This document shows positions 12,298 to 51,728 of a DNA stretch of 64,000 nucleotides, one piece after another; position 1 is the first letter of the stretch; every line of letters starts with the position of its first letter. Location: positions 1 to 64,000 of the forward strand of contig NZ_PEAY01000005.1 of the NCBI RefSeq assembly GCF_002807665.1, given 5' to 3'. A program made the position numbers and the translations under genes. The DNA is from Neoalteromonas facilis (GTDB lineage: Bacteria > Pseudomonadota > Gammaproteobacteria > Enterobacterales > Alteromonadaceae). Below the pieces are notes generated by a model. The model made no database searches. It saw nothing but the letters and a program-made list of their open reading frames with translations, and had not been told where the DNA came from.

Positions 12298-12439
12298 TCT
12301 TCTATTTAACGCTTTTAGCAATGTTTATGACGAGGCTCACCTTAACCGCTCTTGTGTTAATACACATATCTGAACGTACCTTCTCGAGCGAGATAAAGAA
12401 AAGGCCTCATTTTGTAATCGTTAATTTTATGGTGTGCAT

Positions 12440-15400: not shown

Positions 15401-15580
15401 TTCTTTCATCTCATTTGCAGCAGCATTGGTGAAAGTAACGGCTAGTATTTTATCTGCCCCTATCTCGCCGTTCTGTATGAGCTGTGTAACGCGTTGCATA
15501 ATGCTGAAAGTTTTACCTGCGCCGGCACCAGCCTTTATATATTCACCTTTCAATAGTTTCGAAGGATTTACGCTACTCAT
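12440..15580 (-). CDS. AddA/RecB-like UvrD-family helicase-nuclease
   Basis: The 1046-aa protein has superfamily 1 helicase motifs: Walker A AGAGAGKT (17-24), motif Ia AVTFTNAAANEMKER, motif II IIDEFQDTNP (351-360), motif III GDLKQSIMGFQGADS, a motif V region STWHKSKGLEW, and motif VI YVALTRARESL. The last 90 residues form a RecB-like nuclease domain (GTIDLL with Asp 983, then IIDHKTD with Asp 996 and Lys 998). Its start overlaps the stop of the AddB-like gene by 4 bp (ATGA), so they form a complex. AddAB-type enzymes process double-strand ends; whether this is the host repair enzyme or a defence copy is open, but context suggests defence. Confidence 0.82.
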   Translation of the reverse strand: MSSVNPSKLLKGEYIKAGAGAGKTFSIMQRVTQLIQNGEIGADKILAVTFTNAAANEMKERIRRDLLELGLIEQANKIQESTISTIHGFGLELIKRFAFEKGISPNPRQLIEAEQKQLIRSALEQVEVIETVVNDLRKYGYKGSQSEGAVDKFRTKLLSVTDKLRLIGKGCENELENLVKDAKDHLSMIYGPIISDADALNLSLWNAIQVLRHNKPDVDIIMKEWGSNRYARKFIETAYSTDLSDIQSDWSVWTSLQMGGAPKIEKSPDRHLAEAIWDAADRLSAHPGPLLEALSHIEALLKGALEVLDIYNCDKEYAGLIDFNDMVALAHSILGSEELKNEIIRKFDFLIIDEFQDTNPLQFALLHQFEKAGIPTLIVGDLKQSIMGFQGADSRLFQSILTKGNETEEVVVRELSNNWRSTPELMEFINEIGNELYGEEYHHLFVKKEASYKSDFPAVQKLVFDPEHWAPDNRSTNKYSMSSDAHYVLAKHIKEIIDSGKPVTDRHTKEKRKIRPSDIAVLGDTHQVLSEFSQVLNEFGLETKLGKDGFMEETVVHWITNALKYVANPQDHFAILDLVTSDYANGSLNELLSGFFEKRFFDLDVTHKLRQISKGCRYSDIPSVVQATIEGLDIWTKLKSRSDYLQQRANMIKFIGLAERFQSLQPESLEAMGIYGKNLNTFILWLSESSDDDTIKNLPAVEASPEDAIVLSTWHKSKGLEWPIVMVLNLHKDRAPRLPDINFDYKSSDINTMLESSYISFFMDFANSATKENFKSSLRVRSLSTTRNLAYVALTRARESLILPYYDNDCDLSILALIKGVFEKPTFECHEVEAIYVDKPDSLRDVSVANRVLSKQHLKLSVKPAVVSPSMNHSTSTSEIAAKCITYGVSIDLSRLDERWEANRIGNWFHKCLEVSIKNPNLMARCVGLLPQDIRETDIQDLSVAQVHHFKTWLDSLSPLETFCEVPVLSKNGDGQTVSGTIDLLIKTDSGYWIIDHKTDKTTDIDKHLSQLFSYVQMLDESKPVIGIGVNWIRKGSLSLLPLPLE

Positions 15581-18180
15581 TTGCTATCTCCTTCGCGTAA
15601 AAAGCGTTGAATCAAACTATTTTCTTCGATGGCAATTGGGTTAACACCTCGTTTTTTCCAAAGTTCTAAATCATCATGACTATTCAATTTAACCAAGCCA
15701 TTTGACAACTCTGATAAAGACTGTTCAACACACCTCCTCGCGTTGATAGATTGCTCATCTAGAGAACAATCTGGCGACAATAACTTGGCTATTCCGTTTG
15801 CAGCCTCTGAAATGTCAAGCACAAATGTCTGATCCTTCAGAATGTAGTAACCACTTTGAATGACGCAATTTCCAAACATTTGAGAATAAAGCTTTCTATA
15901 AATGAATGTTTGCAAATCATACCCTTTCGATAGTCGGCGAAAGCGCTCGTCTGACTTCGATCTTTTGTAGTCTAAAATTAAAACCTTGTTGTCTTTTGCT
16001 AAAACCGCATCACTAAACCCTTTTACTGGGATCCCCCATAATTCTCCGTGGAGCATAAGTTCTGCTTGATCAATCGACCATTTAGTTTCTGCTAACCATT
16101 TGCTGAAAACATCTAGAGCTTTCTTTATGTCTCGACTTAAGTTGATTCTATCCAAACGCCACTCCGGCCCCTTCAAGAATGGAGCTTCTATCTCAATAGC
16201 GTTAAAGAATAATTCTTCGTAGTAACTCTCAATATCCCTATTGCTCTGATACTCTTCAAACAACTCAAACACTTTGTGAGCAACTTTACCTTCCAAATTA
16301 GGATCTAACTTCTGAACCTTCCATGATCTATCTACAATTCCTTGCCGTTCCAGTAGCCAATATAGAGGTGAAATCACAAGTTTTTCGAGGCTACTGGGAG
16401 ATTCAGGCCTTGGGTTACCATCTTTGTCGACGTTTAGATGCAGTAGATTGCGCGAAAAGTTTAAGTCAGCATTAAGTCTATTTTCGCTTGCGATAATAGG
16501 TATCGTTTCCCAAGTGAAAAAGCTATCTTCAAGATCTGAAATTCCGTCAAATAGTGCTTTTGGATTGGCTTCTTTGGGCTCATAAAAACATAGTGTTAAG
16601 TCTAGGGTAATATCTCCTAATTGGATCACTGAACCATCTAAATCGAATTCACATGCAGTAGCGGTAATTGATTTCTTCGCTCTACTGATACTTCGTTTTA
16701 AAATGGACTTTCTCTTATCGAGCTCAGCTCCCAAATGAGCACCCAATCCTAAATCATGGTATTGCTGAAGATCAAAAACCGTACCTTTTATCAAGGCATT
16801 TTGGCTAAGTTGATAGTGACCATCATTCATGTGCATCCAAAATAGGTGGTCTACAGGAAAAGGCAAATCCTCCTCAGAATTAACCGCTAGCACCGCATCC
16901 AGATAAAAGCCTTTTTCGTCAGAGAGCGTTAAACTTTTAGCTTGTATTTTATTCAGCAATTTCGCACGTAGTTCATCAAATGAATGTTCAAAAGGCTCTT
17001 GATTGAGCTCCAAAATCGAATCGACTAACCGTTCCCAACGCGCATTAGTCATACCCGACTGATTATTATTACTCAAAAATGAACCAACATCGTTTAGCCA
17101 ACTTTTCAGTAAAGAAAGATCTTGGAAAGATTTAGTCAGACTATCGTAGAGTCCCGGTGCTATCTCATCTGCAATTTCTTTTGAGGCGCTATCTAGATTG
17201 AGAATACGTTCGAGTTTATTTGATGATGACCAAGGCATAAGAGGGTTACTTATCACAGATTTCAATGCCATTGGAGGTGCATTGTCATCTTGCAAACTTA
17301 TTAGGTCTCTTAAGAGTTGACTCTGCCAATCATAAACTTCCTCTCCCATCGGGAAATTGCTTATACAAACGCCTCTCTTTTGAAGAGCCATCACAAGAAA
17401 GTGCAAGTGTTTCATTTCTTTCGGATAAATAATGGCTATCTGCGATGCGTCTGTACCGGTACTGATTAACGAGGCAATTCGATTTGCTAAAACTTCAGCT
17501 TCTTCTTGCTGGTCTCTGCATGAAATGGCATAAAATTGCTCAGGTTTTGTAACAGTGCAATCTTGTACAAACAAACTATTTGCAACCTCATTGAATTGAG
17601 GTCCGCCTATCTCACTCATTTTCAAAAAAGCATCTTGAATTTCCTGTGAAGGGACTTGGCCCCCATCTGTAAGTCTATGCACTACATCCTTTTGCCATGG
17701 ATAAAGATGGACATTTTGATGTGTATGCAGAATAAGGTTTGCCAAAGACTCATTAAGAGGAATTGAAAACCAATCAAGAGAAATTTGATAGCTTCTGGGT
17801 TTGCTGGACAACGAGTTTATTAATCTAACAATATCGTTGAAATATCTCTGAGTTCGGTCATCGATATTCATAATTGGATTAACGGTTTGAGCGAGTGGTA
17901 ACCCATTAAGGACTAAAGAAATAGTCTCAGATAATGTCCGAATTACACTCTCTTCATCGACTCGTATGGACTTTGACCAGAATGCATCCGTAAGCATAAC
18001 GGCCTTTCTACGTAATTCTTCATCAAACTCATCTAAAGGCTCATCAAGGATCCAAAGCTCCTTTAGTACTTCTAGCAATGCATTGTAATTACCGACCTTA
18101 ACATTAAATACTTTTGAGTTAGCGAGTTCTCTTCTGACAAAATTGGCAGCAACAGGATCTGATACTAAAACAAATTCCAT
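15577..18180 (-). CDS. AddB-like PD-(D/E)xK nuclease subunit
   Basis: The 867-aa protein ends in a RecB-like nuclease domain: GFSDAVLA supplies the first Asp, LILDYKRS the D-x-K pair, and QTFIYRKLY the Gln-xxx-Tyr motif of AddB/RecB nucleases. The body resembles the inactive-helicase half of AddB; no intact Walker A was seen. I did not see the four-cysteine iron-sulfur cluster of Bacillus AddB. GGAG precedes the ATG. It is translationally coupled to the AddA-like gene. Both subunits therefore appear to carry a nuclease, as in AddAB. Confidence 0.75.
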   Translation of the reverse strand: MEFVLVSDPVAANFVRRELANSKVFNVKVGNYNALLEVLKELWILDEPLDEFDEELRRKAVMLTDAFWSKSIRVDEESVIRTLSETISLVLNGLPLAQTVNPIMNIDDRTQRYFNDIVRLINSLSSKPRSYQISLDWFSIPLNESLANLILHTHQNVHLYPWQKDVVHRLTDGGQVPSQEIQDAFLKMSEIGGPQFNEVANSLFVQDCTVTKPEQFYAISCRDQQEEAEVLANRIASLISTGTDASQIAIIYPKEMKHLHFLVMALQKRGVCISNFPMGEEVYDWQSQLLRDLISLQDDNAPPMALKSVISNPLMPWSSSNKLERILNLDSASKEIADEIAPGLYDSLTKSFQDLSLLKSWLNDVGSFLSNNNQSGMTNARWERLVDSILELNQEPFEHSFDELRAKLLNKIQAKSLTLSDEKGFYLDAVLAVNSEEDLPFPVDHLFWMHMNDGHYQLSQNALIKGTVFDLQQYHDLGLGAHLGAELDKRKSILKRSISRAKKSITATACEFDLDGSVIQLGDITLDLTLCFYEPKEANPKALFDGISDLEDSFFTWETIPIIASENRLNADLNFSRNLLHLNVDKDGNPRPESPSSLEKLVISPLYWLLERQGIVDRSWKVQKLDPNLEGKVAHKVFELFEEYQSNRDIESYYEELFFNAIEIEAPFLKGPEWRLDRINLSRDIKKALDVFSKWLAETKWSIDQAELMLHGELWGIPVKGFSDAVLAKDNKVLILDYKRSKSDERFRRLSKGYDLQTFIYRKLYSQMFGNCVIQSGYYILKDQTFVLDISEAANGIAKLLSPDCSLDEQSINARRCVEQSLSELSNGLVKLNSHDDLELWKKRGVNPIAIEENSLIQRFLREGDSK

Positions 18181-18255
18181 ACTAGATATGACTCCTTAAA
18201 TAAGCCGCATATTCTTTCCTTGAACATACTGTTGTAGAGGAATAACGCCTCACAA

Positions 18256-18519
18256 TCAACATATAGCGTCCCCATTGACAGGCTCGGCAACGATAACTAA
18301 CGCTTTAATTGATGGCTTTATCTTATATTCAATAACCCTAAATGGATGTCCATCAAACATAATCTCTGATATGAATTTGTTGTCCGATACTAGCGCTAAT
18401 ATCTCCTTGGACTGCATAAATCTGGGTGCTATAGAGCCGCCAAATTTTTTAAATTCAACATGAACTTTAATATCTCCAGAGTTAGAGAACATTTCTAAGT
18501 ATTCTTTAAACTTAAGCAT
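18256..18519 (-). CDS. Hypothetical 87-aa protein upstream of the AddAB-like genes
   Basis: A small soluble protein (MLKFKEYLEMFSNSGDIKVHVEF...) with alternating strands and a helix, and a good AGGATT ribosome-binding site. No family recognised. It lies 75 bp ahead of the AddB-like gene and after the WYL regulator, so it is probably part of the same transcript. Confidence 0.55.
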   Translation of the reverse strand: MLKFKEYLEMFSNSGDIKVHVEFKKFGGSIAPRFMQSKEILALVSDNKFISEIMFDGHPFRVIEYKIKPSIKALVIVAEPVNGDAIC

Positions 18520-18660
18520 GTTAATCCTATCGTTTCAGCAATCCGCTCTTCATGATGAGACTAAGATTAAACTCTAAAAGCGTCACATTGTGACGCAATT
18601 GAAAATAAAACTCGCTGCCAAAGAGTTTGGAAGTAATGACGCCAAATTTCTTGAAGGAGA

Positions 18661-19665
18661 TTAGGAATAACTCTCTAGTCCAATGACTAGTAAACGTTTG
18701 ACCTCATCTTTCAACATTTTAGGAGACAAGACTTTAATCATGTTTGCCCGACCAACTAGCCACCACAGCATCTCATCGGTGATCAATGCTTTGGCTCGTA
18801 CCATGTAAGTACCATCTTGATCGCTCAAAATATGTTGATCTTCTCCTATCTTCGTTTCATTAAAGTAAAAAATGAACTCGTCTTTAACCGCTAACTCTAT
18901 GGTTTCTAAATTGGTACTTCTTGGATAATCAAACATTCCTTGCTGCTCTGCGTAATGGGCCAAAGAAAAATCCTTATTTATCGCGGCAGACTCGCTTAGT
19001 AATTCAATAGAAATAAATCTATTTACGAAGTATTGCTTAACATCTCCCTTCTCATTCATCGCAACTAAGTAGATCCTAGCCCCCTTTACAGCTATCCCTA
19101 GGGGAGACAACACATAGCACTTGGGATTTCCGTTTCTGCGGTTGTATACAGCTTTGAATTTGTGCTGCTGGAAAACAGCTTGATATATAGACGCTAAGAT
19201 ATCTGGTTCGGCTGTAACATGATGAAAAAACGGCCCCGAATTGATATGAAGAATTTTGTCTCTCCAACCGTTTGCTTTAGAAGCCTGTGAATCGAGGATC
19301 CTCTCTGCACTATCAAAATACGGCTGTAGATCATTCAACAAGTGAGGAGGCAATAGAGGTGACAAATATTTTTGAGCTAAATGGAAAGTCAGTGCTACAT
19401 TGCTCGACATAGCTGGCAACGTTAAAAAAGCACATGATGTTGGCCAAAACCATGCGTGTTTTTTACCTATAGATTCATGTGTTATAGGGAAAAGTGACAT
19501 CGAAGAAAGAAAGTTAAGATCGCGTTGTATCATTCTCAGACTTGCATAAATACCGTCGTCTTCAAGTGATGCTTTTAACTCCTTCACCGTGACCGTCTGA
19601 GGGAAACGAGGAATCTTGCTCAAGATAAACCAAAATCGATTCATAGCTTCATGCGAACTAGACAT
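18661..19665 (-). CDS. WYL-domain transcriptional regulator with winged helix
   Basis: The 334-aa protein has an N-terminal winged helix (about 15-65: VTVKELKASLEDDGIYASLRMIQRDLNFLSS split over the usual DeoR-like pattern) and a WYL domain around residues 155-235, with YNRRNGNPKCYVLSPLGIAVKG, then RIYLVAMNEKGDVKQYFVNRF. GAGGGAG precedes the ATG. It is the first gene of the minus-strand run with the AddAB-like pair and endonuclease. WYL regulators often repress adjacent defence genes until a DNA-damage or nucleic-acid cue appears; that role is inferred. Confidence 0.82.
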   Translation of the reverse strand: MSSSHEAMNRFWFILSKIPRFPQTVTVKELKASLEDDGIYASLRMIQRDLNFLSSMSLFPITHESIGKKHAWFWPTSCAFLTLPAMSSNVALTFHLAQKYLSPLLPPHLLNDLQPYFDSAERILDSQASKANGWRDKILHINSGPFFHHVTAEPDILASIYQAVFQQHKFKAVYNRRNGNPKCYVLSPLGIAVKGARIYLVAMNEKGDVKQYFVNRFISIELLSESAAINKDFSLAHYAEQQGMFDYPRSTNLETIELAVKDEFIFYFNETKIGEDQHILSDQDGTYMVRAKALITDEMLWWLVGRANMIKVLSPKMLKDEVKRLLVIGLESYS

Positions 19666-19770
19666 GTTAACTCCCTCTAATATTTTTCTTCATTGTTTGC
19701 CGCTTCCTGCACGTCCGATTAAAGTTCACTTAATTAGTCTTTAAGGTCCGCACATTAAGAAACCTGGCTT

Positions 19771-19880
19771 AATGACCATTTAAATAGACTTAATTAGAAT
19801 ACACCTGTTCCACATGACTACGTTATGGGCATCCCATAATAGACAGCAATAAGTCCATTAAGATTGACCTAATGGCCATT
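19771..19880. promoter_or_regulatory. Paired palindromic sites between the WYL gene and hipB
   Basis: The perfect palindrome AATGGCCATT (19871-19880) and a one-base variant AATGACCATT (19771-19780) lie exactly 100 bp apart in the divergent gap. They share flanking TAA and TT. They may be operators for the WYL regulator or for HipB. The remaining gap is A+T-rich with several TTAATTA motifs. Confidence 0.4.
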
Positions 19881-19922
19881 CTTCGCTACCTTCAACACAA
19901 AATACCAATTTAATATACTTTT

Positions 19923-20240
19923 ATGAAGCGCAGAGGCGGAAAAGCAGTCAAACCAAATCCTATGCCTGATTTGACAGGCATGTTTTCCACAGGGCTTCTT
20001 GGCAAAGCGATTGCTGCTAAACGAACTGGCATGAAGCTACGCTTGATTGATGTCGCAACGACGCTTTCTATATCAAAACAAACATTAGTTAAAATTGAGA
20101 AAGGCGACGATAAGGTTAATTTTGCGATTTTACTAAAAGTCATGGAGTACTTAGGGCTCTCATTTCAAATAATTTCTGATGACTTAACTGACTCGCAAGA
20201 AAAAGTAAGTGACGAGGCTATACAAGATGACTGGTTCTAA
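19923..20240 (+). CDS. hipB: HipB-like antitoxin/repressor
   Basis: The 105-aa protein contains an Xre-type helix-turn-helix (about residues 27-85: IAAKRTGMKLRLIDVATTLSISKQTLVKIEKG split across helices) and a short acidic tail ending DDWF. In HipAB modules HipB binds and neutralises the kinase and represses the promoter. The gene overlaps the hipA start by 14 bp, indicating coupled translation. The divergent WYL gene shares its upstream region. Confidence 0.8.
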   Translation: MKRRGGKAVKPNPMPDLTGMFSTGLLGKAIAAKRTGMKLRLIDVATTLSISKQTLVKIEKGDDKVNFAILLKVMEYLGLSFQIISDDLTDSQEKVSDEAIQDDWF

Positions 20241-21609
20241 TTCATTAGATGTATTCATTGGCACTCGACTAAACAAAATAGCTACCCTGACTTTAGAATC
20301 TGCAACAGAATCTGAAATGTCACTGGTATATGAGCCGGGCTGGGTGAAAGAAGGCTTTGCATTTTCTCCTCATCTCCCCTTAGATGGAAAGTTCGACAGC
20401 AGAGCTGTTCGTAACTTTATTCAAAACCTTCTACCTGAAGGTCGCGGATTAGAGGAAATTACGTCCAATACAACTGTTTCAAAAAACAACGCCTTTGGTC
20501 TCATTAGAGTTATTGGTGCCGATACATCAGGGGCCATCTCATTTCGCCCTTTTAAATCTCCCCCTGTGGAAACGTCATTTCGAGCCGTATCAAAAGAAGA
20601 GCTGTCAGACAGGCTCAAGAAATTCAAATCAAGTGCAGCTTCGCTATCACAATGGGATGGAACGACTCGATTATCGGTTGCAGGCGTGCAAGATAAACTC
20701 AACTTTCTTGAGAGAAATGGTGAACTTGGGTTCGGAGAAGGTAACTTATGTTCAAATCGCATTTTTAAATTCGAAACCGGAAAGGTCCCTTTTATAGCCG
20801 TTAATGAGTTTTTCACCATGGCGTTGGCAAAAGAAGCAGGATTAGAGATTCCCCATATCGAACTCCGTGATTACGGTGGTGTAAGGACATTCGTGATAGA
20901 TCGCTTTGACCGCCAATGGACGCCTGACAAAGATGTAGTATTGCGACGACACGTAATTGATGGGTGTCAAGCGATAAACTTACCACCTTCTTATAAGTAT
21001 GAGAGACAACATGGTGATAGCGGAGATGGTGCATTCATTAGAGATGGCGCCTCATTTCCAAAGCTTTTCGGCATCAAAACATCGAATCAAGCAGCATACA
21101 AAACATCACTCATCAGATGGCTGATATTCAATGTGTTAAATCGAAACTATGATGCACACGGAAAAAACATTAGCTTTTTTATCAACCGTGCGGGAATGAA
21201 ACTAACGCCATTTTATGATTTAGTTAACATAGAAGCTCTGCTATGCGAGGTTGAAAAACAAAGTGGGGGAAATGCTAGTGAAGAAGCTGCACTTCGCAGC
21301 TATGCCATGTCCATCGGAGAGTATGAGCAGGGTGAGAAAGGTAATTTCACAAACCCTATTACCGCCTATGCATTAGCTGATTTTGCATCTTCCTTTGCTA
21401 TAAGCCCTGAACGCCTTCACCTGCTCATTACTCAACTAATAAGCAAAGTAGAGCTGGGGATCGAAAAAGCCAAGAGCCTAACCTTAAAATATGACCTTTC
21501 AGATCAAGAAAGCAAACATGTCGAACTCTGTGTCAGCATCGTTCAAAAGGCCATTGAGGAGTTAAAAGAAGAATCAAAGCAGATCACAGAAATGTTTCAA
21601 TTAATCTAA
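20227..21609 (+). CDS. hipA: HipA-like serine/threonine kinase toxin
   Basis: The 460-aa protein has the HipA architecture: N-terminal subdomain with NLLPEGRGLEE, a Gly-rich region DTSGAISFRP, SVAGVQDKL ahead of the ATP site, then the kinase catalytic motif NYDAHGKNISF (catalytic Asp and Asn) and LTPFYDLVN (metal-binding Asp). HipA phosphorylates glutamyl-tRNA synthetase in E. coli and causes growth arrest; the substrate here is unknown. I chose the ATG giving MTGSNSLDVF; a GTG-like start six codons earlier is possible. Catalytic residues look intact. Confidence 0.85.
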   Translation: MTGSNSLDVFIGTRLNKIATLTLESATESEMSLVYEPGWVKEGFAFSPHLPLDGKFDSRAVRNFIQNLLPEGRGLEEITSNTTVSKNNAFGLIRVIGADTSGAISFRPFKSPPVETSFRAVSKEELSDRLKKFKSSAASLSQWDGTTRLSVAGVQDKLNFLERNGELGFGEGNLCSNRIFKFETGKVPFIAVNEFFTMALAKEAGLEIPHIELRDYGGVRTFVIDRFDRQWTPDKDVVLRRHVIDGCQAINLPPSYKYERQHGDSGDGAFIRDGASFPKLFGIKTSNQAAYKTSLIRWLIFNVLNRNYDAHGKNISFFINRAGMKLTPFYDLVNIEALLCEVEKQSGGNASEEAALRSYAMSIGEYEQGEKGNFTNPITAYALADFASSFAISPERLHLLITQLISKVELGIEKAKSLTLKYDLSDQESKHVELCVSIVQKAIEELKEESKQITEMFQLI

Positions 21610-21682
21610 TTTAATACCTCTCAACTACGCTCAACAAGTCCGCATAAAGTGAAGTTGATGGACAAATTTATAGAGAGACAAG

Positions 21683-21844
21683 CTACTGACTTTTGTCTGC
21701 GTTAGGAGTGAATCGGAAATATCGTCGGCCTGTTTCCTTATCAACAGGACATATAACCTCTGTTAATAGAGCCAACACTAAAGGTCCAAGCAACATTACG
21801 ACTAGCCCGTAAACTTTCCATGCAGCAACATGCTCAACCCACAT
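21683..21844 (-). CDS. Small single-span membrane protein (53 aa)
   Basis: An unannotated-size gene: ATG preceded by GGAG, coding MWVEHVAAWKVYG, then a hydrophobic helix (LVVMLLGPLVLALLTEV) and a polar tail (CPVDKETGRRYFRFTPN). Composition and topology are coding-like. No family recognised. A second small gene lies 24 bp upstream on the same strand. Confidence 0.5.
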   Translation of the reverse strand: MWVEHVAAWKVYGLVVMLLGPLVLALLTEVICPVDKETGRRYFRFTPNADKSQ

Positions 21845-21868
21845 GCCGATAAACTCCTAGGTTTAAGG

Positions 21869-22054
21869 TCAATAGCCCAAAACCCGAATTGACTCTCCAT
21901 CGCCTAACGTCTCATAGGTCCAATTATTCTTTTCACAGCGCAGAGTAAAACGCTCAGCATCCAGCTGTTGGTCTTCTGTTAATACACCCCTCATTAACAA
22001 GGTGCTCAAAGATGTCCATAAATTCGATGATTTAATTGTGAATATTTCATTCAT
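21869..22054 (-). CDS. Hypothetical 61-aa protein
   Basis: A GAGGTG ribosome-binding site lies 6 bases before the ATG giving MNEIFTIKSSNLW. An upstream in-frame ATG would add a hydrophobic segment but has no ribosome-binding site. The product is soluble with one Cys and three Trp/Tyr residues near the end; unknown function. It and the next small gene occupy part of the 1-kb gap between hipA and the giant recombinase; the rest (22200-22470) shows no gene. Confidence 0.45.
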   Translation of the reverse strand: MNEIFTIKSSNLWTSLSTLLMRGVLTEDQQLDAERFTLRCEKNNWTYETLGDGESIRVLGY

Positions 22055-22476
22055 TTTCTTCACCTCTGAGATTAAGGATAACCCAAAGATCACAGTAAAA
22101 AAGATGAAATTTCGCTTGATTTTCGAACTCGCCATTAAAGCATTGAGTAATAAAGAATTAAATTTTTCACTCAGGCTTGGCAGCGAAGTTAACTCGTAAC
22201 GTCATCCCTACGAATGACCAAATTAAACATATCCAATTGATAATTATAGCTTTATCAGGCTTTCAATGCCGACTCGAATAATTAGCAAACTCTCTACTTC
22301 CATCGGTTTTTCTCTTGATTGCGAAAAAATTTCGGTTTCACCGCCAGTAAAGTGAAAAAAGTTCGCATTACTAATCTAAGGCCGCCAATGAAAGCAAATT
22401 GATGTTCAAAGAAAAAGCGTGGGGCCGGGAAAAAACCTGCGTCTACCAAAAATATTGACGTTTATTTGAGGTAACG

Positions 22477-22527
22477 TTGAAAAAAGCACTAAGCGAAGCC
22501 CAACTAGAAAATTATTTAACAAGCTAA
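22477..22527 (+). CDS. Tiny leader ORF (16 aa) ahead of the recombinase
   Basis: A TTG codon behind GAGG opens a 16-codon frame (MKKALSEAQLENYLTS) whose TAA overlaps the ATG of the next small ORF as TAATG. The chain of overlaps suggests a coupled leader, but so short a frame may be chance. Confidence 0.25.
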   Translation: MKKALSEAQLENYLTS

Positions 22528-22634
22528 TGGTAAAAGAGAGTTTATTCGGAAAGCAATGCGATGAGGACGACGAAAAGCAATCAGTCAGATTTAGTGGGGT
22601 ACTCAAAGTACTCGATTTGCCGGGGGGTTTATGA
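22527..22634 (+). CDS. 35-aa ORF overlapping the giant recombinase start
   Basis: The frame MVKESLFGKQCDEDDEKQ... ends in TGA that overlaps the ATG of the 1743-aa gene (ATGA). The last codons contain CCGGGGGG, which also provides the ribosome-binding site of the big gene, so reading this ORF would feed ribosomes to the recombinase. No family recognised. Confidence 0.4.
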   Translation: MVKESLFGKQCDEDDEKQSVRFSGVLKVLDLPGGL

Positions 22635-25600
22635 CCAACTTTCGTGATCGGCTGATCCTGCCTTTGTCGCATTATGCAGCCCCGGAATATAAAAAAGTGT
22701 TAGATAAACTAGAAGATACGCTAGGAATTGATCATCATTTTAAAGGTCGTTTTATTCTGGCTGAGCGACTAATTGAGTTGTTCAGCTTTGACTTAAACCA
22801 TTCTGAATCGCTTCAATCGATAAAAAAAGAGACGCTTTGTGCATTAAAAAGTGTGTTAGAAGATGATCAGTATAGTACGCCCCCGACGCACTCCTACAAT
22901 AAACAAAATCTAATTAGTGGTACTAAAATACGCTATCCAGTTCCGGCCTTAATTTTCGCGAAACTCGAACTAATAGGGGACTCTAAACATAAATATGAGT
23001 TGGGACTGACGAAATTACTCTGTGACTTACTTTGCGCCTCAATATTTCGACACAACTTAGAACTTGTGAACTTCGCATACGATATACGCTCGTTTATCAG
23101 TGACAGAGCATGCTCGCCTCTCCCCCTCGCGTGGTATGCCCAAATAGGCTGCGATAGGGAAGATTTAAATAAAGCTATTGATAAAGCGAATAGAGCAACA
23201 GAAAACGGCAACCTTAATAGCAAGGAAAAAAGGTTCATCAAAGTTCTTATAAGGCTATTTGACGTTCATCTCGAAATTCTGTCACAAAGCGATGCCCCCC
23301 AAAATGGCCTCCTCGACAATTCAAAAGGAAGCGAAATTGATCACGAAAAAAGTTCTAAGCATTGGATACAGAAGTGTCAATTTCTAACGCCGAATGACTA
23401 TAGAAGATTAACTGCCATTGAAAGAAAACACTTTGTAAGTGCATTAGTCTCGGCGTTAAAGGGCGACTGTGATTCTGAACGAAATTCAGCCGGCTTATTA
23501 TTTATCTCGTATTTAACAGGTCAATATCTTGAGGATGTATTTAACTTTAAAAAAAGCACTACGGGTGAAATCACAGAGCATGGTCTTTATAGAAGAAAAA
23601 TTAGTAGGCCTGTTGATGGTTACACACCAGATTTTAAGACACCTTCCCAACTCGCAGTTGCAGATGAAGTGTTATTACCTTTCCCTGAGTTTCTGCAAGA
23701 ATGGCTTGCTCACATTCCCGTTCGAAAACAATGCATTCTAAATAGCTTATTCAAAGGCAAAGAGGACGCAACCGAAGGTATTAAAAGGTTACTCCGAAAG
23801 ATTCGCAAATTTCCTCAATGTCAGCGGATCAAAATGGACAAAGTACCAGCTGCCCTGCATCTAGAACTTCAGCTACTTTATAGGGATGAGAGTCTAAGCT
23901 TTTTGCTGGCAAGTAAACCTTCGCAGGCACACGCATATCTTGGTTACTATGTTTCTCATGAAATACAAAGACTTAAAGAGGCATATAATAAGGCCACGCA
24001 GAACCTTTTAACTGAAGATTTCTATGTACCGTCAGATCCAAACCCACTTAGCGAAAGTTGCGACGCCAAAATAGTCACGCTTCCTCACCCGTCGAGAAAC
24101 GACATCGATTGTCTAAGAAAGTCAATTCTTAATGAAATCTCGTTGGCCAAAGACTGCAAAAATATCATCGAGATACATAATCGATATACTGACTATTGTC
24201 TGTCCTTGTTGTTTTTGGCCACAGGGCATCGCCCCGTCGAAGATCCGTTTGGCAGCCTAGAGCAAATCGATTTAGAGAATGGCCTAATCGCCATTTCAGA
24301 CAAATCAACTTCTGCTTCTTCGATTTGGCGCATTGCGGCGCTTAGCAATTCAGCTGTTAAACAAGTCGAGTATTATCTTTCGTATCTAAAAGCGCTTCCG
24401 AGCAAGTTGTTTGAAAATCAAGCTCTCAGAAATCTGGCCCATAAACTTGAAGCAGCTTTAAGCGAGAAGAGCTCAAATTTCCCACTTTTCTTTTACTTAG
24501 ATGATGCTAACCCACATCAATTTATCTCAATTACACAAAAAATATTAAAGGAACAATTTAAGAATTACTGGCGATGGCCTGTTAATTTCACTAGGCATAT
24601 TCTAGCCACAGAGCTCATGAAATTATTACCCAGCGGTGATCTGGTTAAAATTCAACTGGGTCACATATACGGCCCCCAGCACCCTTTTGGCGTTCGCTCA
24701 ACTATCTCTTGTCTTGATGCACTTAATATTATTAGGCCTTGTATAGAATCATTCTTACTCGAACACGATTGGAGGCCAATTGTAAGTCCTATACGTAAAA
24801 CGACATCTTTACCTAAGCTCGCGCAGCCAATCCAAGATCCCAAACGGAAACTCGGCTATGAAAAGCGACAAAAAGTAAGCGAGATGAACAAGGCAGCCGC
24901 CAGACATCACTTAAAGCAAACAATAGTCGAGCATTTTCACAAACGAAAAATCAGTCAACTTAACGTTGATGAATTGACGTTTTTAGAAGAGCTTTATGTA
25001 ACAAAAAGGGACAAACAGAAATTAACACAACGCTGCTTAGCGAAGATCCGCAAAGAGTTGGCGCTAAGACTTTCAAAAACACGCGAATTTGCCAGCGCTC
25101 GTTCTGAGGCAACTCCATTTTCTGCCTTAACACTTAAATATTACGCCGACGCCCAAAGCTTAAGATCTCAATTTTTGTCCTATCTCAACAAACAATCTCT
25201 GAGTGATATTGAACTTTACACTCGTCTCGCTGAGATAACAGTTTCTGCAGCCTTGTTGGGGGGGATGTCTTATGAACCTTTTATACAAAGGCTCCCTTCG
25301 ATGTTAAACACGTCTCTATTTAAGATAGATGACAGTATCATCATCGATTTTACGCAATGCTCTGATGACCCGGAATATCGTTATCAGTGGAGCGCTGACG
25401 CCATAACTTCCGGCCTAATCCTCGCATATCTAAAAATAACTAACGGAAAGTCCTATCGATTCTCAACGTCAAAATTTACTAAAGCGTTATCTCAACTTTT
25501 ATTGTCTCTACACGTAAAGGCTAATTATCCCAGTTCTTACCTCGCTCATTCAGCGAACTGCCTTGCCATCATAGAGCTGCCAGGATGCTTACGAGGCTAT

Positions 25601-27862
25601 ACGAATCGAACGTACCTAACAGCGAGTTTACCGCTCAAAGTAGTAACACGTTTATCAAGTGACCAATCACTGGCACATGAAAATATTAAAGAAGAATTAG
25701 CACGCAAACGAAACTTCACAAAGTTGCCATTAATACTTTCTGGGAAAAACACTGGCAAAAACTTGCTCTGCCTAAAAAAGGATTTAAGAAAGATAAACAA
25801 AGATATTAGCTCTCTAGCATTTGCGGGAAACGAAAAACGCGACGTAAAGCAAAAGAATCACCTCCTTAATGCGATTAATGAACTTTTTACCTCTGAAAAT
25901 AATTGGTCACTTCAAGCAGGTTTGGTAGCCGACTACGCACTATCGATGATTAAAAATGGTACCAAAGCTACTTCAGACCCTGCATATTCAACGGTGAGAC
26001 AATATTTAGGTACCATCATTAAAGTCCTTTTACCGCTAGACGAAAGGCCAATTGGCGTCGATCTCTTTCAACAAAATGCCGTGTTCTGGGAAGAAGTTTA
26101 TTGTGATGCATTAAGTCGAACTAGCGGTAAAAGTAAGGACGTCATGTGCACCGTGATTAAAGCCTTCCATGGTCTATTGTGCGAGAGCTACGGTTTCGAA
26201 GATATTGAGTGGAGCATTATCTTTGCTGCTGCGCAGAGCTCAAGTATTCCATTCAATATCGACGCGAATTTTATTTCTGAGAGCGAATATCTAGATCTAA
26301 TTGCCACTTTAAGTACTCTTGACTTTATTGACGAGCACGAGCGCTTACAACTGATAGCGCTTGTCGTTTTAGGCTATCGCGCTGCACTTCGCTATTTTGA
26401 AGCCTTTGGCCTATTGGCACGAGATGTCATCGACAATGAATGTCTCGAAATACTTATTCAGCAAAACATCATTCGCGGACTCAAAAGCGAAAACGGAAAG
26501 CGGGCATTTGTCAGCAATGAGTCTCTTCACGATGTCGAAAAACAAGCGTTAGAAGCGTTAATTATCTCAAAGATTGCAGAAAGAGAACGAGATGAATTAA
26601 CGCCACTCTTCAACAGCCAAAATGCTGTTGGCAGACAGTTAATATCGCCATCACGAACCATAGACATAATTCATAAGTGCCTACGCGGTATAACCGGCGA
26701 CGGATCGCTAAGGTTTCACCACTTCAGGCATAGCTATGTTGGTCGACAATTTTCGCAGAAATTTGAGTCACTACGAGAAGCATACGGCAAACAAGATATT
26801 GAAAATTTCAATACAAACATTTATCCGCTTAGACACATAGCGACCGCAGTTGGCCACTCAGACGAGTTAACGACACTCACTTCTTACACGCATTGTCATA
26901 GCGAACTTTTAAGAAATACTCTTACCGATTTTTCAAGTCATTTAACTGACGCTGGGCGAGACTATTGCCTTGCCAATAAAAGTGGCGCTGCGCTTAAACG
27001 AAGAAGTCGAGGAAACAAAAGCGAGTCATTTTCCGCATTGACAATAAACAAAAGGGTTTCGAAGCTTATCTCAACGCCACCATTTGAGACTCAAAAAAAA
27101 AGAGAAGTAACACAGGCTGGCCTTGATTTGAACGTTGCACATACTGAAGTGACGCTGATAGGCATCGCAAACAAGCTGCTTTGGTACTCACAATCTGCCA
27201 TCAACGCGAGCGCTATCGAAAACTGTAGCATGAATCGTTTCTTTGACAGCCATTCGGTCTTTGATGCTGCTGCTCAAGTAGAAATCAACTCCGGTTTTTC
27301 TATCTATAACCTCTTTCAAAAACAAAATGATGCTCTTAGCTATTCAGAAGCACATGATGTCGTTTCACATTTTAATAGAGAAGCTGAAACTCGCTTTTAT
27401 AAAGCACTAGAAAATCTTCAAAATTGCGATTGCCTTGACAAAAAGTTAAAGGACTTAAATCACGCATTAAACTTGTGGGTAGATACTTTTGATTTTGATA
27501 GTCAAACCAATTTGGTATTAAACGCAGCGGACGCAACAAGCCTGAAAGTGCTATTTGAATTCATCAAGAGCAATGTCGAACTAAGCGTCAAATTTAGCCA
27601 ACCAACCATCAAAGACACCTGGCCAGCTGCTTTCCTAAGCGATGTTGTGACGACTGTTGGAAAACTACCTGCTCGGACGGCAAAAATTAAAGCCCTACAG
27701 CAAATGATGGCGTCACTCAAAATCAACGCACTGTCAGACCGGCGACTTATCCACCGCGTCATCTTCATTCTAAACATTTACTTAAAGCTCATAACGTCAA
27801 GTGAGTCGATGATGAGTGAGCAAATTTCAAACAACTATATACAACTAAGGATTAAAAAATGA
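22631..27862 (+). CDS. Giant protein with two tyrosine-recombinase-like cores
   Basis: The 1743-aa protein carries two regions resembling tyrosine recombinase catalytic domains. The central one (about 520-690) has ATGHRPVEDP (Arg 534), NFTRHILATEL (the HxxR histidine is Asn 652) and IQLGHIYG, but no well-placed Tyr, so it looks degenerate. The second (about 1235-1425) appears complete: Arg 1254 in RYFEAFGL, a basic hairpin GLKSENGKR, HHFRHSY (His 1363, Arg 1366), VGHS (His 1409) and SYTH (Tyr 1419). Most site-specific integrases are 300-450 aa. It overlaps an upstream small ORF and a downstream 299-aa gene by 4 bp each. It probably mobilises the surrounding genes; the N-terminal 500 and C-terminal 300 residues are unassigned. 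Confidence 0.75.
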   Translation: MTNFRDRLILPLSHYAAPEYKKVLDKLEDTLGIDHHFKGRFILAERLIELFSFDLNHSESLQSIKKETLCALKSVLEDDQYSTPPTHSYNKQNLISGTKIRYPVPALIFAKLELIGDSKHKYELGLTKLLCDLLCASIFRHNLELVNFAYDIRSFISDRACSPLPLAWYAQIGCDREDLNKAIDKANRATENGNLNSKEKRFIKVLIRLFDVHLEILSQSDAPQNGLLDNSKGSEIDHEKSSKHWIQKCQFLTPNDYRRLTAIERKHFVSALVSALKGDCDSERNSAGLLFISYLTGQYLEDVFNFKKSTTGEITEHGLYRRKISRPVDGYTPDFKTPSQLAVADEVLLPFPEFLQEWLAHIPVRKQCILNSLFKGKEDATEGIKRLLRKIRKFPQCQRIKMDKVPAALHLELQLLYRDESLSFLLASKPSQAHAYLGYYVSHEIQRLKEAYNKATQNLLTEDFYVPSDPNPLSESCDAKIVTLPHPSRNDIDCLRKSILNEISLAKDCKNIIEIHNRYTDYCLSLLFLATGHRPVEDPFGSLEQIDLENGLIAISDKSTSASSIWRIAALSNSAVKQVEYYLSYLKALPSKLFENQALRNLAHKLEAALSEKSSNFPLFFYLDDANPHQFISITQKILKEQFKNYWRWPVNFTRHILATELMKLLPSGDLVKIQLGHIYGPQHPFGVRSTISCLDALNIIRPCIESFLLEHDWRPIVSPIRKTTSLPKLAQPIQDPKRKLGYEKRQKVSEMNKAAARHHLKQTIVEHFHKRKISQLNVDELTFLEELYVTKRDKQKLTQRCLAKIRKELALRLSKTREFASARSEATPFSALTLKYYADAQSLRSQFLSYLNKQSLSDIELYTRLAEITVSAALLGGMSYEPFIQRLPSMLNTSLFKIDDSIIIDFTQCSDDPEYRYQWSADAITSGLILAYLKITNGKSYRFSTSKFTKALSQLLLSLHVKANYPSSYLAHSANCLAIIELPGCLRGYTNRTYLTASLPLKVVTRLSSDQSLAHENIKEELARKRNFTKLPLILSGKNTGKNLLCLKKDLRKINKDISSLAFAGNEKRDVKQKNHLLNAINELFTSENNWSLQAGLVADYALSMIKNGTKATSDPAYSTVRQYLGTIIKVLLPLDERPIGVDLFQQNAVFWEEVYCDALSRTSGKSKDVMCTVIKAFHGLLCESYGFEDIEWSIIFAAAQSSSIPFNIDANFISESEYLDLIATLSTLDFIDEHERLQLIALVVLGYRAALRYFEAFGLLARDVIDNECLEILIQQNIIRGLKSENGKRAFVSNESLHDVEKQALEALIISKIAERERDELTPLFNSQNAVGRQLISPSRTIDIIHKCLRGITGDGSLRFHHFRHSYVGRQFSQKFESLREAYGKQDIENFNTNIYPLRHIATAVGHSDELTTLTSYTHCHSELLRNTLTDFSSHLTDAGRDYCLANKSGAALKRRSRGNKSESFSALTINKRVSKLISTPPFETQKKREVTQAGLDLNVAHTEVTLIGIANKLLWYSQSAINASAIENCSMNRFFDSHSVFDAAAQVEINSGFSIYNLFQKQNDALSYSEAHDVVSHFNREAETRFYKALENLQNCDCLDKKLKDLNHALNLWVDTFDFDSQTNLVLNAADATSLKVLFEFIKSNVELSVKFSQPTIKDTWPAAFLSDVVTTVGKLPARTAKIKALQQMMASLKINALSDRRLIHRVIFILNIYLKLITSSESMMSEQISNNYIQLRIKK

Positions 27863-28758
27863 ATCACCGAATGCATCATCTGATCAGCATACACGAATGC
27901 AATATTTCTGAATTAAACGGCAATCTAAGTTGGTCCCCAGTCGACGAAAGAACCCAGAAGGCTGCACGCGAACATCTAGAAAATATCAGAGCAGCTTTGT
28001 TCTCAAAATTTTCAACTAAGATAAACGACAACATGGTTATTTTCACAATCATCAAGGAGATAAAGAAAGACAGCAACTCACTTCAATTATCGCTCATCGC
28101 ACAGACACGAAATATGAACATGCCGCAGAAGACCTGGTTAAACATAATGCAAGAGTGTGAAAGCATGATCCAATCTAGTTTAGATGCGGTGGCTGATTTG
28201 GCTGATAGCCCAAATATTGATTCCATCGAAGTAAAAATAAAAAACCTTGCTCAACAGAACCTACTCGATACTGACAGCAGCATCAAAACAAAAGAATTAG
28301 CGGTCTCAAATAACACCGAAGCTAGAATATTAAAGTCGTTCCTCAAATTCAGCCGAAACCTACCCGAACGAGCGACTCAATGCGATCTCAACGGAGTGAC
28401 ATTGACAATCCCGCGCCTTGCCAACAGCACGCCAGAAATCGTAAGCGCAGAAACTATTACTCATATAGCCTACGTTAATGGCATGATCTGGAGTGACACG
28501 CACGTTAAATTGTCAAAAGCGACATGTAACGATTTTCTGATTCCGAGGGACCGAACAGTTACCTATGAAGAATCTATTAAATGTGAACTATTGGATTTAG
28601 AACGAAATAACAGCGGAAAGCCAGTTAAACTCAAATTAGTCGTCGAAACTGACAACTTAAATAATAGGAGAATTAGTCATGTAGCGGACATAGTAGAAGT
28701 CATCGAAAATAACTTAAGCTCTGATAAGTTTGATGATCTTTTTATTGATGACGAATGA
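27859..28758 (+). CDS. Hypothetical partner of the giant recombinase (299 aa)
   Basis: The soluble protein begins inside the stop region of the recombinase gene (ATGA overlap), so it is translationally coupled to it. The middle is helical (about 60-170), the end is strand-rich and acidic (DKFDDLFIDDE). I recognise no family or catalytic motif. By position it is likely a recombination directionality factor or structural accessory; that is inference. Confidence 0.65.
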   Translation: MNHRMHHLISIHECNISELNGNLSWSPVDERTQKAAREHLENIRAALFSKFSTKINDNMVIFTIIKEIKKDSNSLQLSLIAQTRNMNMPQKTWLNIMQECESMIQSSLDAVADLADSPNIDSIEVKIKNLAQQNLLDTDSSIKTKELAVSNNTEARILKSFLKFSRNLPERATQCDLNGVTLTIPRLANSTPEIVSAETITHIAYVNGMIWSDTHVKLSKATCNDFLIPRDRTVTYEESIKCELLDLERNNSGKPVKLKLVVETDNLNNRRISHVADIVEVIENNLSSDKFDDLFIDDE

Positions 28759-28859: not shown

Positions 28860-28889
28860 ATCAGCAAACAGCAAGCTAGGTTTGCTGAT
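28860..28889. terminator. Hairpin between convergent genes, possible bidirectional terminator
   Basis: ATCAGCAAAC and GTTTGCTGAT form a perfect 10-bp stem around a 10-base loop at the junction of two convergent genes, overlapping the last codons of the minus-strand one. There is no clear T-run on either side, so termination would be inefficient or factor-assisted. Confidence 0.4.
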
Positions 28890-29292
28890 GATGCAACATT
28901 TCTAAAGCATTTATTCGTTTAAAGACTTCATACAGATTAGCCATCGAGCCTTCGACCATCAGCGACAAGGGCGTGCGGCCATTGAAAAATGGATTGTGGT
29001 TTTCCATGTTAACAAATCCGTAAATATTTTTCGGATTTTCAAACACCGTCCTGAGTGAAGCATGAATATTCAGAACATAGCTCGCGCGATCGGCCTGGTC
29101 TCTACTCAACCTCACGATTTCTTTACGCTTGACTCGATTGATAGTCGCAGTCGATACACCCAATATGCTTGACATCTGCGCCGGCGTTGCATTCCATTTT
29201 CTTAAGACATTTATTGCGACATGAAGCCCTTTTGATAACTGTTCGGGAGAGGCAGCTTCTTCGGTTTGTGTATTAGCTATTATTGTATTCAT
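28876..29292 (-). CDS. Orphan Xre/MbcA/ParS-family antitoxin-like protein
   Basis: The 138-aa protein has an N-terminal helix-turn-helix (KWNATPAQMSSILGVSTATI) and the C-terminal toxin-binding motif of the MbcA/ParS/Xre family (NPFFNGRTPLSLMVEGSM, then LYEVFKRINAL). Such proteins normally precede a RES-domain toxin that degrades NAD+, but downstream lies only a convergent gene. It may be an orphan antitoxin that counteracts RES toxins elsewhere, or a stand-alone regulator. Confidence 0.75.
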   Translation of the reverse strand: MNTIIANTQTEEAASPEQLSKGLHVAINVLRKWNATPAQMSSILGVSTATINRVKRKEIVRLSRDQADRASYVLNIHASLRTVFENPKNIYGFVNMENHNPFFNGRTPLSLMVEGSMANLYEVFKRINALEMLHHQQT

Positions 29293-29445: not shown

Positions 29446-29609
29446 CATGTTAACTTAATATCTGATCAATCAAACATTAAGAGTAAGTCGCCAGACTTCA
29501 CCAACCTGTTCTCGTCGAATAAGGTGGTTTCCATCAAACATGATGGGATGTGTCCTAAATATAGGAAAATGGAAAAGGCGATGTGCTCATGCAAAAGGAA
29601 ACACTAAGC

Positions 29610-49476: not shown

Positions 49477-50325
49477 TTACCGTTGCAATACTAACGTTTG
49501 AGAAAGATGTTGTGCAGACTGAGTGAAAGGTCTCGTGCATAAACGACTTTTCAAATGACTATCTCCAAGCATTACTGCCAATGTTCTAGCCTCTTGCGGA
49601 TTTGTTTTCTCTAGCTCGACCAAGGCAGGGGCACAAATACGCATGGTTAACTCTCTGCAGGATAATAAGAAGCCCAAACTTGCTAGTCGTGCATCGTGTG
49701 TAAACATAAGGCATTTACCTATGTCATACAGCAAGCCAACGGCAATTGCGATATCGCCGCTGATACAAATCATATGCCGGCTATCTAATAATGATTGAGC
49801 TAGAGTTACTATGTCAGAGAGCAAACTCTTCGCATTATTATCATTTAAACAAACATCTGTTGGGCATTTTAAAAGTTTAATCCCCACATCTTCTGACAAT
49901 ACAATGCCAATTACGAATCGCTTTAGAGATTCGCACCTAATCAATGACAACAGCGTGACCATTTTAATGAGTGAATGCTGATCTCTACAAACTCGCATAG
50001 GCAGTTGCTGGATATCATTAAAACCACTTTGTTTCGAAGACACTGATTGAATGTACTTGCAGCATAGAAATGAACCTTTTAACCCTCGCTCAAATCTAGC
50101 TTCAATATGTACTAATGAGTTAGGAGATAATTTACCGTGAATACAAGACGCATCTCTGCAATATACAACTTGAGAGCCTGTTAAATCATCAATTTGCATT
50201 CTTGCGTAGGCATTTCCCTGCCTATCAAGCTTGGTCACAAAACTTGTTAAAAAATAAACACCTTTAAATCGACTCATCAACCCAATGCTTTTGAGAGGGG
50301 CATATTTGATTTGCTTAGTTATCAT
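49477..50325 (-). CDS. OB-fold protein with degenerate HD-like domain
   Basis: The N-terminal third (FKGVYFLTSFVTKLDRQGNA, then ARMQIDDLTGSQVVYC) fits an OB-fold of the YhaM/TraI type. The rest resembles an HD phosphohydrolase domain, but the key HD is YD in GLLYDIGKCLMF, so catalysis is doubtful. It overlaps the integrase stop by 11 bp and belongs to the mobility operon. It might bind single-stranded DNA or RNA. Its name in databases cannot be checked here. Confidence 0.55.
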   Translation of the reverse strand: MITKQIKYAPLKSIGLMSRFKGVYFLTSFVTKLDRQGNAYARMQIDDLTGSQVVYCRDASCIHGKLSPNSLVHIEARFERGLKGSFLCCKYIQSVSSKQSGFNDIQQLPMRVCRDQHSLIKMVTLLSLIRCESLKRFVIGIVLSEDVGIKLLKCPTDVCLNDNNAKSLLSDIVTLAQSLLDSRHMICISGDIAIAVGLLYDIGKCLMFTHDARLASLGFLLSCRELTMRICAPALVELEKTNPQEARTLAVMLGDSHLKSRLCTRPFTQSAQHLSQTLVLQR

Positions 50326-51496
50326 CGCCAGTATTTCCTAATACACGAGAAAACAATACGTTGGCTGCGGAGCCATCTTTTCTGGTTAAATTGGGTACGT
50401 AGCGCGAATACACTCGAAATAGCATCTCTGTATTGGTGTGACCCATTTGCTTCGCTATCCACTCTGGAGACTCGCCAGCCGCCAACCACAGCGTCGCCGC
50501 AGTGTGCCTCATCTGATAAGGATTGCGTTTTGGAATACCTAGACTGCGCAATAACGGATACCAGACTCTCTTAGTGACGGCATTGTGATCTAATGGCTTT
50601 CCTGCTTTGTTGACAAAAACAAACTGATACTGACCTGTCCTGGACTTCATTGATATGAAAGCGTTATATACAGCTTCGCTCATATCAATCTCGCGTTGAC
50701 TGGAGTCTGTTTTAGTGTATCCAATTTGACCTTGAACGATGGTCTGGCGAATCAAAATCTGTTTTTTGGCCAAATCAACAAACTTCCACTGCAGACCATC
50801 TATTTCACTTGTTCTCATTCCCGTAAAAAAGCGGATGAGGAAGTATTCGTAGAAATCAGACCGACATACAGTTAGGACTTTGTTAATTTCGTCTGGGGTA
50901 AATGGACTTATGTCAGATTTTGGGACTTTTAAAGGTTTGATTTGGCGATGAGGGTTCTTAAAGTTGAACCTTTCTGCCGCCTCGGCAAATATAGCTTTTG
51001 CAATTTTCATATGACGGTTTATATGAGAAGGCGATAGAGAACTACCATCCTTCTTTTTAATGCCACATAAATGTTGCCTGAAATCGAGCAATTGCTCTTT
51101 AGATATTTCGTTTATCGGTAATCCTCTGAAGTAAACCGATAACCGGCCAAACACTATATTAGAAACGGTTGAAGTATAAGTATTGCTCCATTGAACACAT
51201 TGCTCTTCGAACCATTTATTTGCAAAGCGGTCGAAACTAGGCACTTCAATGATATCTCTGGCGATTACTTTTGCCGTGCGCTCGAGCTTCTTAAGTTGCT
51301 TACTATAAGGGAAGGTCGTCGCATAATCGAATTGCCCAAGTAAAATCTCTGCTTGGATTTTATCAAGTAACGCTTGTAAGCGTTTTCTATTTGCTGGCGT
51401 ATCTGTTAGGTCAGTTTGTTCTCGACAGCGCAAATTCCTGAAACGAAAGTCCAAGTACAGCTTACCGGTCTCTTTTCTGACGTTTATGCTAGGCAT
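50315..51496 (-). CDS. int: Tyrosine-type site-specific integrase
   Basis: The 393-aa protein has an arm-binding N-terminus (MPSINVRKETGKLYLDFRF), a core-binding domain and the catalytic domain with Arg in TGMRTSEIDGL, HxxR as QMRHTAATLW, MGHTNTEM and a Tyr in RVYSRYVP. I placed the start at MPSINV because the upstream in-frame residues are unlike the family and overlap the preceding gene. It follows an excisionase-like gene (8-bp overlap). It should move the 48.8-64+ kb element. Confidence 0.87.
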   Translation of the reverse strand: MPSINVRKETGKLYLDFRFRNLRCREQTDLTDTPANRKRLQALLDKIQAEILLGQFDYATTFPYSKQLKKLERTAKVIARDIIEVPSFDRFANKWFEEQCVQWSNTYTSTVSNIVFGRLSVYFRGLPINEISKEQLLDFRQHLCGIKKKDGSSLSPSHINRHMKIAKAIFAEAAERFNFKNPHRQIKPLKVPKSDISPFTPDEINKVLTVCRSDFYEYFLIRFFTGMRTSEIDGLQWKFVDLAKKQILIRQTIVQGQIGYTKTDSSQREIDMSEAVYNAFISMKSRTGQYQFVFVNKAGKPLDHNAVTKRVWYPLLRSLGIPKRNPYQMRHTAATLWLAAGESPEWIAKQMGHTNTEMLFRVYSRYVPNLTRKDGSAANVLFSRVLGNTGDDN

Positions 51497-51728
51497 GCCC
51501 GACTCCACCGTTGGCCATTGGGATTGCCATCGCCTGCTTTGAAAACTTGCACATATCACGCTTGATCGCATCCCAGTCATATAGAATTTTCCGGCCGCCA
51601 AATGGACGAATGTAGTGAATACCTTCAATCAAAACTGAATCCTTTAACTGCTCGCGAATGGTGCGACAGTCGTACTTGATCATATTTGACAGTTCTGCTG
51701 TCGTTAAGAAATTTGACGTTAATTGCAT
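51489..51728 (-). CDS. Excisionase/AlpA-like helix-turn-helix protein
   Basis: The 79-aa protein has the short winged-helix pattern of phage excisionases and AlpA-like proteins (FLTTAELSNMIKYDCRTIREQL, then GGRKILYDWDAI, written here in two pieces). It lies at the head of the mobility operon and overlaps the integrase start. It likely controls excision or int expression. Confidence 0.7.
   Translation of the reverse strand: MQLTSNFLTTAELSNMIKYDCRTIREQLKDSVLIEGIHYIRPFGGRKILYDWDAIKRDMCKFSKQAMAIPMANGGVGHA

Follow-up and report, generated by a model that had tools for sequence, protein, structure and literature searches.

Why would a bacterium carry two tyrosine-recombinase cores in a single chain of 1743 amino acids (aa)? 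The question is raised by a stretch of 64,000 nucleotides from Neoalteromonas facilis (NZ_PEAY01000005.1, positions 1 to 64,000; G000:C19:1-64000), hereafter the window, from a host genome of 3.9 Mb. A first-pass annotation had proposed that this giant protein, with a degenerate central core and an apparently complete C-terminal one, forms a mobility machine together with a small leader and a downstream partner. We consider it likely that the giant is a covalent fusion of two recombinase subunits, here called Y and Z, belonging to the X-Y-Z mobility module of an integrative element, and that it acts by the mechanism proposed below.

The giant and its split relatives

The giant lies in a run of overlapping open reading frames (ORFs), whose layout and coordinates were confirmed:

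22477..22527, forward strand: ORF of 16 codons with a TTG start, meeting the 35-aa ORF at TAATG (a sequence reading)
22527..22634, forward strand: 35-aa leader ORF, overlapping the giant by ATGA and occupying the position of gene X in split relatives
22631..27862, forward strand: giant fused Y-Z recombinase-fold protein, 1743 aa
27859..28758, forward strand: 299-aa partner ORF, overlapping the giant by ATGA

Both joints of the giant, to the 35-aa and to the 299-aa ORF, are 4-base ATGA overlaps, as first described. When the bases of the window were shuffled 20 times, stop-free runs reached at most 233 codons, against the 1743 aa of the giant. Profiles built solely from unfused genes (16 split Y and 15 split Z) matched it in succession, the split-Y profile at residues 235–717 (E 1.1e-62) and the split-Z profile at 744–1454 (E 4.7e-45), and the same profiles likewise matched four other fused proteins. 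Judged by these profile matches, the giant unites Y and Z, normally two neighbouring genes, in one reading frame, with hardly any linker in the window. The earlier description keeps its two cores and is corrected in that the giant is a fusion of two genes, which most of the relatives found carry separately.

The majority of examined relatives have adjacent Y (470–908 aa) and Z (732–1206 aa) genes, preceded by a smaller gene X. Plasmid p1 of Ketogulonicigenium vulgare, for instance, carries genes of 141, 738, 1014 and 248 aa with 4-base overlaps between Y and Z and between Z and W, and further split examples occur on Vibrio cyclitrophicus pLMG21359 and in Acinetobacter johnsonii; these named examples carry the annotations hypothetical protein, integrase or tyrosine-type recombinase. 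Five fused proteins of 1680–1800 aa, all with open reading frames, were found in four genomes or plasmids, two of them in the window's own genome:

Window giant, 1743 aa
G000:C1, 1712 aa: second fused giant of the same genome (L004:11514-16652, reverse strand), near a tRNA-Met remnant and followed by a 250-aa gene (L004:10418-11170, reverse strand)
G457, 1800 aa
G420:C5, 1763 aa
Acinetobacter ursingii WP_004986494.1, 1680 aa

Identity of the other four to the window's halves is only 13–18%, and the C1 and window giants share 22–26% across their matched parts. With its own genome counted in each case, the window protein as query matched 11 of 369 genomes of the class and the C1 protein 6 of 98 relatives. 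A tree addressing the number of fusion origins is compatible with a single origin (approximately unbiased test for a single clade, p 0.22), as it is with several. Scans for close relatives of the giant found none in viral contigs and none in phage records, a scan of genome contigs gave 21 pattern matches with none confirmed, and the sequences of solved structures yielded four matches, all above E 0.7 and with no recombinase among them.

The leader and the partner fared differently from the giant. Gene X is defined by its position upstream of Y, not by its sequence; in 15 tabulated split loci its length is 141–234 aa, apart from L042, whose longest ORF there has 381 aa. Of 17 ORFs tabulated in the X position, only 8 match another by sequence, falling in three groups. 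No relative of the 299-aa partner was found in 274 genomes, of which it matched one, its own. A downstream gene of 250–268 aa is also present in three of the four other fused loci, with sequences unrelated to the 299-aa partner. By sequence, then, neither the 35-aa leader nor the 299-aa partner is a conserved part of the module: the partner matches its own genome only, and split loci carry a 141–234-aa gene upstream instead of the leader.

The two cores and their counterparts in known elements

The two cores lie as follows:

24095..24763, forward strand: Y core, residues ~489–711, tyrosine-recombinase fold, with R534, K558, N652, R655, H678 and S690
25988..26950, forward strand: Z core, residues ~1120–1440, with R1254, K1285, H1363, R1366, H1409 and Y1419 present

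A Pfam scan of the giant itself gave zero matches at E up to 1, while a XerA model matched residues 505–602 (E 6.6e-7; 29 bits, far under the curated cut-off of 220) and a PHROGs integrase matched residues 1166–1455 (E 2.6e-10). Predicted structures of both cores match Xer/Cre folds, with the catalytic-domain fold in each of the two regions that the first-pass annotation had singled out.

Residue conservation was read from alignments of 21 Y halves and 20 Z halves. In Z, five residues (R1254, K1285, R1366, H1409 and Y1419) are kept in 20 of 20 sequences and H1363, the histidine of the HxxR motif, in 17, with Tyr in the remaining three; as aligned, the Z core keeps the complete tyrosine-recombinase catalytic set. 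In Y, R534, K558, R655 and H678 are kept in all 21, N652 replaces the first His of HxxR in 19, and the column of the nucleophilic Tyr holds Ser (S690) in 20. The Y core thus seems to have lost its DNA-cutting residue while keeping most of the active site, the rest of which is, on these alignments, under strong constraint. Separate software-made alignments repeat the same invariant columns. A first mixed Y/Z alignment (A1) had been dropped, its Y rows apparently placed onto the Z core. Model matches, catalytic columns and predicted folds agree in supporting the annotated pair of tyrosine-recombinase cores, the central one degenerate and the C-terminal one complete.

Such conservation bears on whether the giant is simply a decaying mobility gene, in which two genes of an already immobile element were run together by a frameshift or a lost stop codon, leaving the protein idle. 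Broken copies do occur elsewhere (G268 has a stop and G161 a split N-terminal part), directly upstream of the giant there are only short ORFs and no X-sized gene, the partner is an orphan, and the window shows no tRNA and no ends. However, 1743 codons remain open with all Z catalytic residues and the conserved Y pocket intact, and five fused proteins of 1680–1800 aa are open, the other four of them sharing only 13–18% identity with the window's halves. We regard decay as rather unlikely.

Operons that combine complete and degenerate recombinases have been described. According to the accessible parts of PMC10214605, strand-biased circularizing integrative elements (SEs) carry intA-tfp-intB-srap, encode a Tfp without the RHRY residues, form a strand-biased circle while leaving no empty site and are proposed to exchange one strand pair; GInt elements, in the accessible parts of PMC5385486, carry ginABCD, three adjacent integrase genes with one for a small helix-loop-helix (HLH) protein, and their GinC is without the first Arg. 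The module resembles SEs, as far as these are described there, in an operon that pairs a large complete tyrosine recombinase with a non-catalytic recombinase-fold protein, at an island end and with few target sites. It differs in that its operon holds only two recombinase-fold genes, sometimes fused, in that its ordinary integrase is distant, often accompanied by an HD-family gene, with none inside the operon of the window or its relatives, and in that Y keeps R-K-R-H without Tyr; by gene layout, an adjacent intA-tfp-intB plus srap operon is absent from the window and its relatives. Several recombinase genes per operon, one of them degenerate, and a variable cargo are features shared with GInt elements in that partial account, whereas the module has two large genes or one fusion, Y keeps its first Arg in 21 of 21, and three adjacent integrases with a small HLH protein were not found, each module having two recombinase-fold genes or one fusion.

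One could nevertheless see in the module a divergent SE or GInt, with Y as Tfp or GinC, Z as the large integrase and the other components moved or replaced. Both systems pair complete recombinases with a fold-keeping, non-catalytic partner (accessible parts of PMC10214605 and PMC5385486), and an ordinary integrase accompanies the module, at a distance, in most genomes tested. Against this, no ordinary integrase adjoins the module, which shows neither ginABCD nor the intA-tfp-intB order, and Y keeps both Arg, the Lys and the His where the same partial accounts give Tfp no RHRY and GinC no first Arg; such an origin is decidedly unlikely. Because the SE and GInt gene orders are absent and the silent subunit keeps residues that theirs reportedly miss, we call the module a new variant of multi-recombinase integrative elements, set apart from SE and GInt by published layout only.

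Other families were also compared. RIT elements, according to a table note in the accessible part of PMC10214605, have three recombinases, of 315–410 aa in the archetype and all with a catalytic Tyr; membership was rejected, as sizes differ and Y is without the catalytic Tyr. The gamma-mobile-trio (GmtY-GmtZ-GmtX), in the partial descriptions available, is likewise a set with two recombinase-type proteins and a third, on islands said to be defence-rich, but its gene order and sizes differ from those of the module. Membership was rejected here too: the NCBIfam Gmt models, all three of which recognised a control locus, gave no match to any module protein tested, and local-mode hhalign profile comparison with four loci gave nothing significant beyond a weak recombinase signal (Z core against GmtY, E 0.0014). 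With Xer/Cre-type recombinases the giant shares the fold and catalytic residues of its Z core and the fold of its Y core, and it departs from them in having two cores in one 1743-aa chain, one apparently without a nucleophile. Among the titles listed in searches of the open-licence literature, none described this module, and a term search of the tyrosine-recombinase survey PMC8138268 gave no occurrence of fusion, inactive or two catalytic domains.

Signs of mobility and a proposed mechanism

The relatives of the giant provide the signs of mobility. With the V. cyclitrophicus Z as tblastn query, relatives turned up in 193 plasmid records, of which 190 are from Acinetobacter; the rows inspected there are labelled only hypothetical protein, integrase or tyrosine-type recombinase, or carry no annotation. 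Copies of the p3ABAYE module start sharply around one base (query 2704–2708 in H108–H112), and among 8 Acinetobacter plasmid records the left end, a variant in one record, stands in six different flanks, with three records sharing one flank. No clean empty site was present among the Acinetobacter plasmid records compared; CP151079 (L077) was rejected as a candidate, being a deletion that retains the Z 3' end, as was CP119240 (L078), where the divergence adjoins an IS66 gene.

An arm-type integrase (Arm-DNA-bind_2 plus Phage_integrase) recurs near the module in 10 of 27 clustered stretches, and an HD/TraI_2-like partner gene in 6 of the 27. Thirteen module-bearing genomes hold 16 arm-type integrases, 11 within ~23 kb of a module, 9 of these convergent to it, and the remaining 5 either 63 kb away or on other contigs. 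The chance expectation is ~0.28 linked integrases for 15 modules (~0.29 for 16, on recount), from a rough model with a distance limit set post hoc. Three of the five fused giants have tRNA-Met nearby: that of G457 starts 0.75 kb past a tandem array of four tRNA-Met genes, that of G420:C5 lies ~5 kb from a tRNA-Met gene with an integrase between, and that of C1 is 0.4 kb from a tRNA-Met remnant. In 11 Acinetobacter stretches, among them that of A. ursingii, a scan for tRNA genes gave none, and most split loci are without one, with L047 (tRNA-Val) the sole exception among them. It is probable that the Y-Z pair takes part in moving a genomic island, and the mobility role first proposed for the giant gains support through its relatives, from the left end in six flanks, the linkage to arm-type integrases and the tRNA-Met beside three of the five fused copies.

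Further observations concern the edges of these loci. Two tRNA-Met remnants have lost their inner part (L004:17077-17111, tRNA positions 33–44 joined to 55–77, and L036:17895-17920, 33–46 beside 65–77) and could be recombination products. At L036:18038-18475, ~5 kb from the G420:C5 fused giant, units of ~60 bases that include a tRNA-Met tail recur every 126 bases. On four Acinetobacter plasmids (L095:13714-15650; L079, L080, L085) the right side of the module faces an umuDC-type operon, possibly a preferred site.

In the window, a linked integrase pair lies to the right of the giant:

49477..50325, reverse strand: 282-aa protein that clusters by BLAST with the HD/TraI_2-like integrase neighbours of relatives, without a Pfam match itself
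50315..51628, reverse strand: arm-type tyrosine integrase (Arm-DNA-bind_2 plus Phage_integrase), convergent to the giant and a candidate for the other end of the element

Positions 2120–2257 of the window and the contig from 74983 match stretches of G001:C1 that are only ~350 bases apart there, and the intervening 72.7 kb, which contain the defence genes described below as well as the giant and its integrase pair, lack a counterpart at this location. We treat this variable stretch as a lead, not a border, since its left anchor is only 138 bases long and partly repeated in G001.

We propose that Z would cut and rejoin DNA through Y1419, and that Y would bind the second half-site and grip the scissile phosphate. 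Because Y could not form the covalent bond, a Y/Z synapse would exchange one strand pair only, as proposed for SEs. Fusion would hold Y and Z in a 1:1 ratio, site choice and excision would be supplied or completed by the arm-type integrase at the far end, and the likeliest cargo would be the DNA between giant and integrase, ~28.8–49.4 kb. Alternatively, within the same proposal, the silent Y pocket may take a Tyr from a neighbouring Z; in Flp, the active-site pocket accepts a tyrosine from a neighbouring subunit. For SE- and GInt-type islands, both the course of recombination and the function of the catalytically silent recombinase-fold proteins are open questions. The giant joins an apparently silent recombinase and a presumably active one in one chain, the silent site conserved nearly residue by residue, and such a chain, by fixing stoichiometry, would allow the function of the silent subunit to be tested on a single protein.

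Several points weigh against a fused recombinase of an integrative element working in this way. A Tyr stands near the aligned Ser of the Y core in some sequences (immediately before it in 4 of 21, two residues before in the C1 giant and two after in two others), and the Y model is least certain in this nucleophile loop, where its predicted local distance difference test (pLDDT) score falls below 50 at 681–683 and 685–692, so that loss of the Y nucleophile is an alignment result. Foldseek with the Y model gave no match under E 0.001. Among the 11 linked integrases, two lack the convergent orientation, two of the 13 module genomes are without an arm-type integrase, and several Acinetobacter modules have none annotated nearby in the PLSDB gene tables, which are incomplete. 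Giant and integrase could come from different elements, as 22 kb separate them within a variable region of ~72.7 kb, and neither ends nor a target duplication nor an empty site was found for the window.

Neighbouring genes in the window

To the left of the giant lie genes of other kinds:

11419-19665, reverse strand: candidate defence cluster (PvuRts1/SRA-type modified-base restriction enzyme; UvrD helicase with RecB-like nuclease domain; 867-aa PDDEXK protein; WYL)
19923-20240, forward strand: helix-turn-helix (HTH) gene
20209-21609, forward strand: HipA-type gene

HipA/HTH genes also lie close to the module on the K. vulgare plasmid and on some Acinetobacter plasmids, a putative link. The nearness of the PvuRts1-type restriction enzyme, the RecB/UvrD-like helicase-nuclease, WYL and HipA genes would suit a giant that has a stable place in a defence island, outside any mobile element, as a DNA-binding or defence-linked protein. 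The conserved catalytic site of Z argues otherwise, as do relatives found in varied surroundings, with a sharp left end, next to integrases or close to tRNA-Met, and we hold this explanation to be highly improbable. The defence genes that the first-pass annotation had placed beside the giant as possible cargo are indeed present, but all of them (PvuRts1-type, UvrD/RecB-like, WYL and HipA) lie on its left, outer side, away from the linked integrase, which is 22 kb off on the other side, and no bounding repeats were found in the window. GInt elements have imperfect direct repeats at both ends; between the putative end regions of the window, 51500-52400 and 18500-22700, a comparison of exact 11-mers gave only one A-rich 12-mer. 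The window holds no tRNA genes or tRNA remnants, and comparison with the Acinetobacter ends gave no convincing match in it (two left-end matches, with 7 mismatches in 25). The right flank, 51600-64000, had no match in three same-genus genomes, an empty result that carries little weight.

Three smaller features complete the picture of the window. Short stretches at 1906-2297 are repeated in same-genus genomes, where one adjoins an integrase-type frame with a stop in G001; a fragment within this region is presumably an IS110-like transposase. Just beyond the partner, at 28876-29292 on the reverse strand, lies a gene for an Xre/ParS-type antitoxin, whose relative in a same-genus genome is 65% identical; its scanned neighbours include no recognised toxin partner. 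The antitoxin gene is followed at 29469-29582, on the forward strand, by a SAM-I/IV riboswitch aptamer (55.6 bits, E 2e-6) that precedes a 102-aa ORF and a 5'-nucleotidase-like gene.

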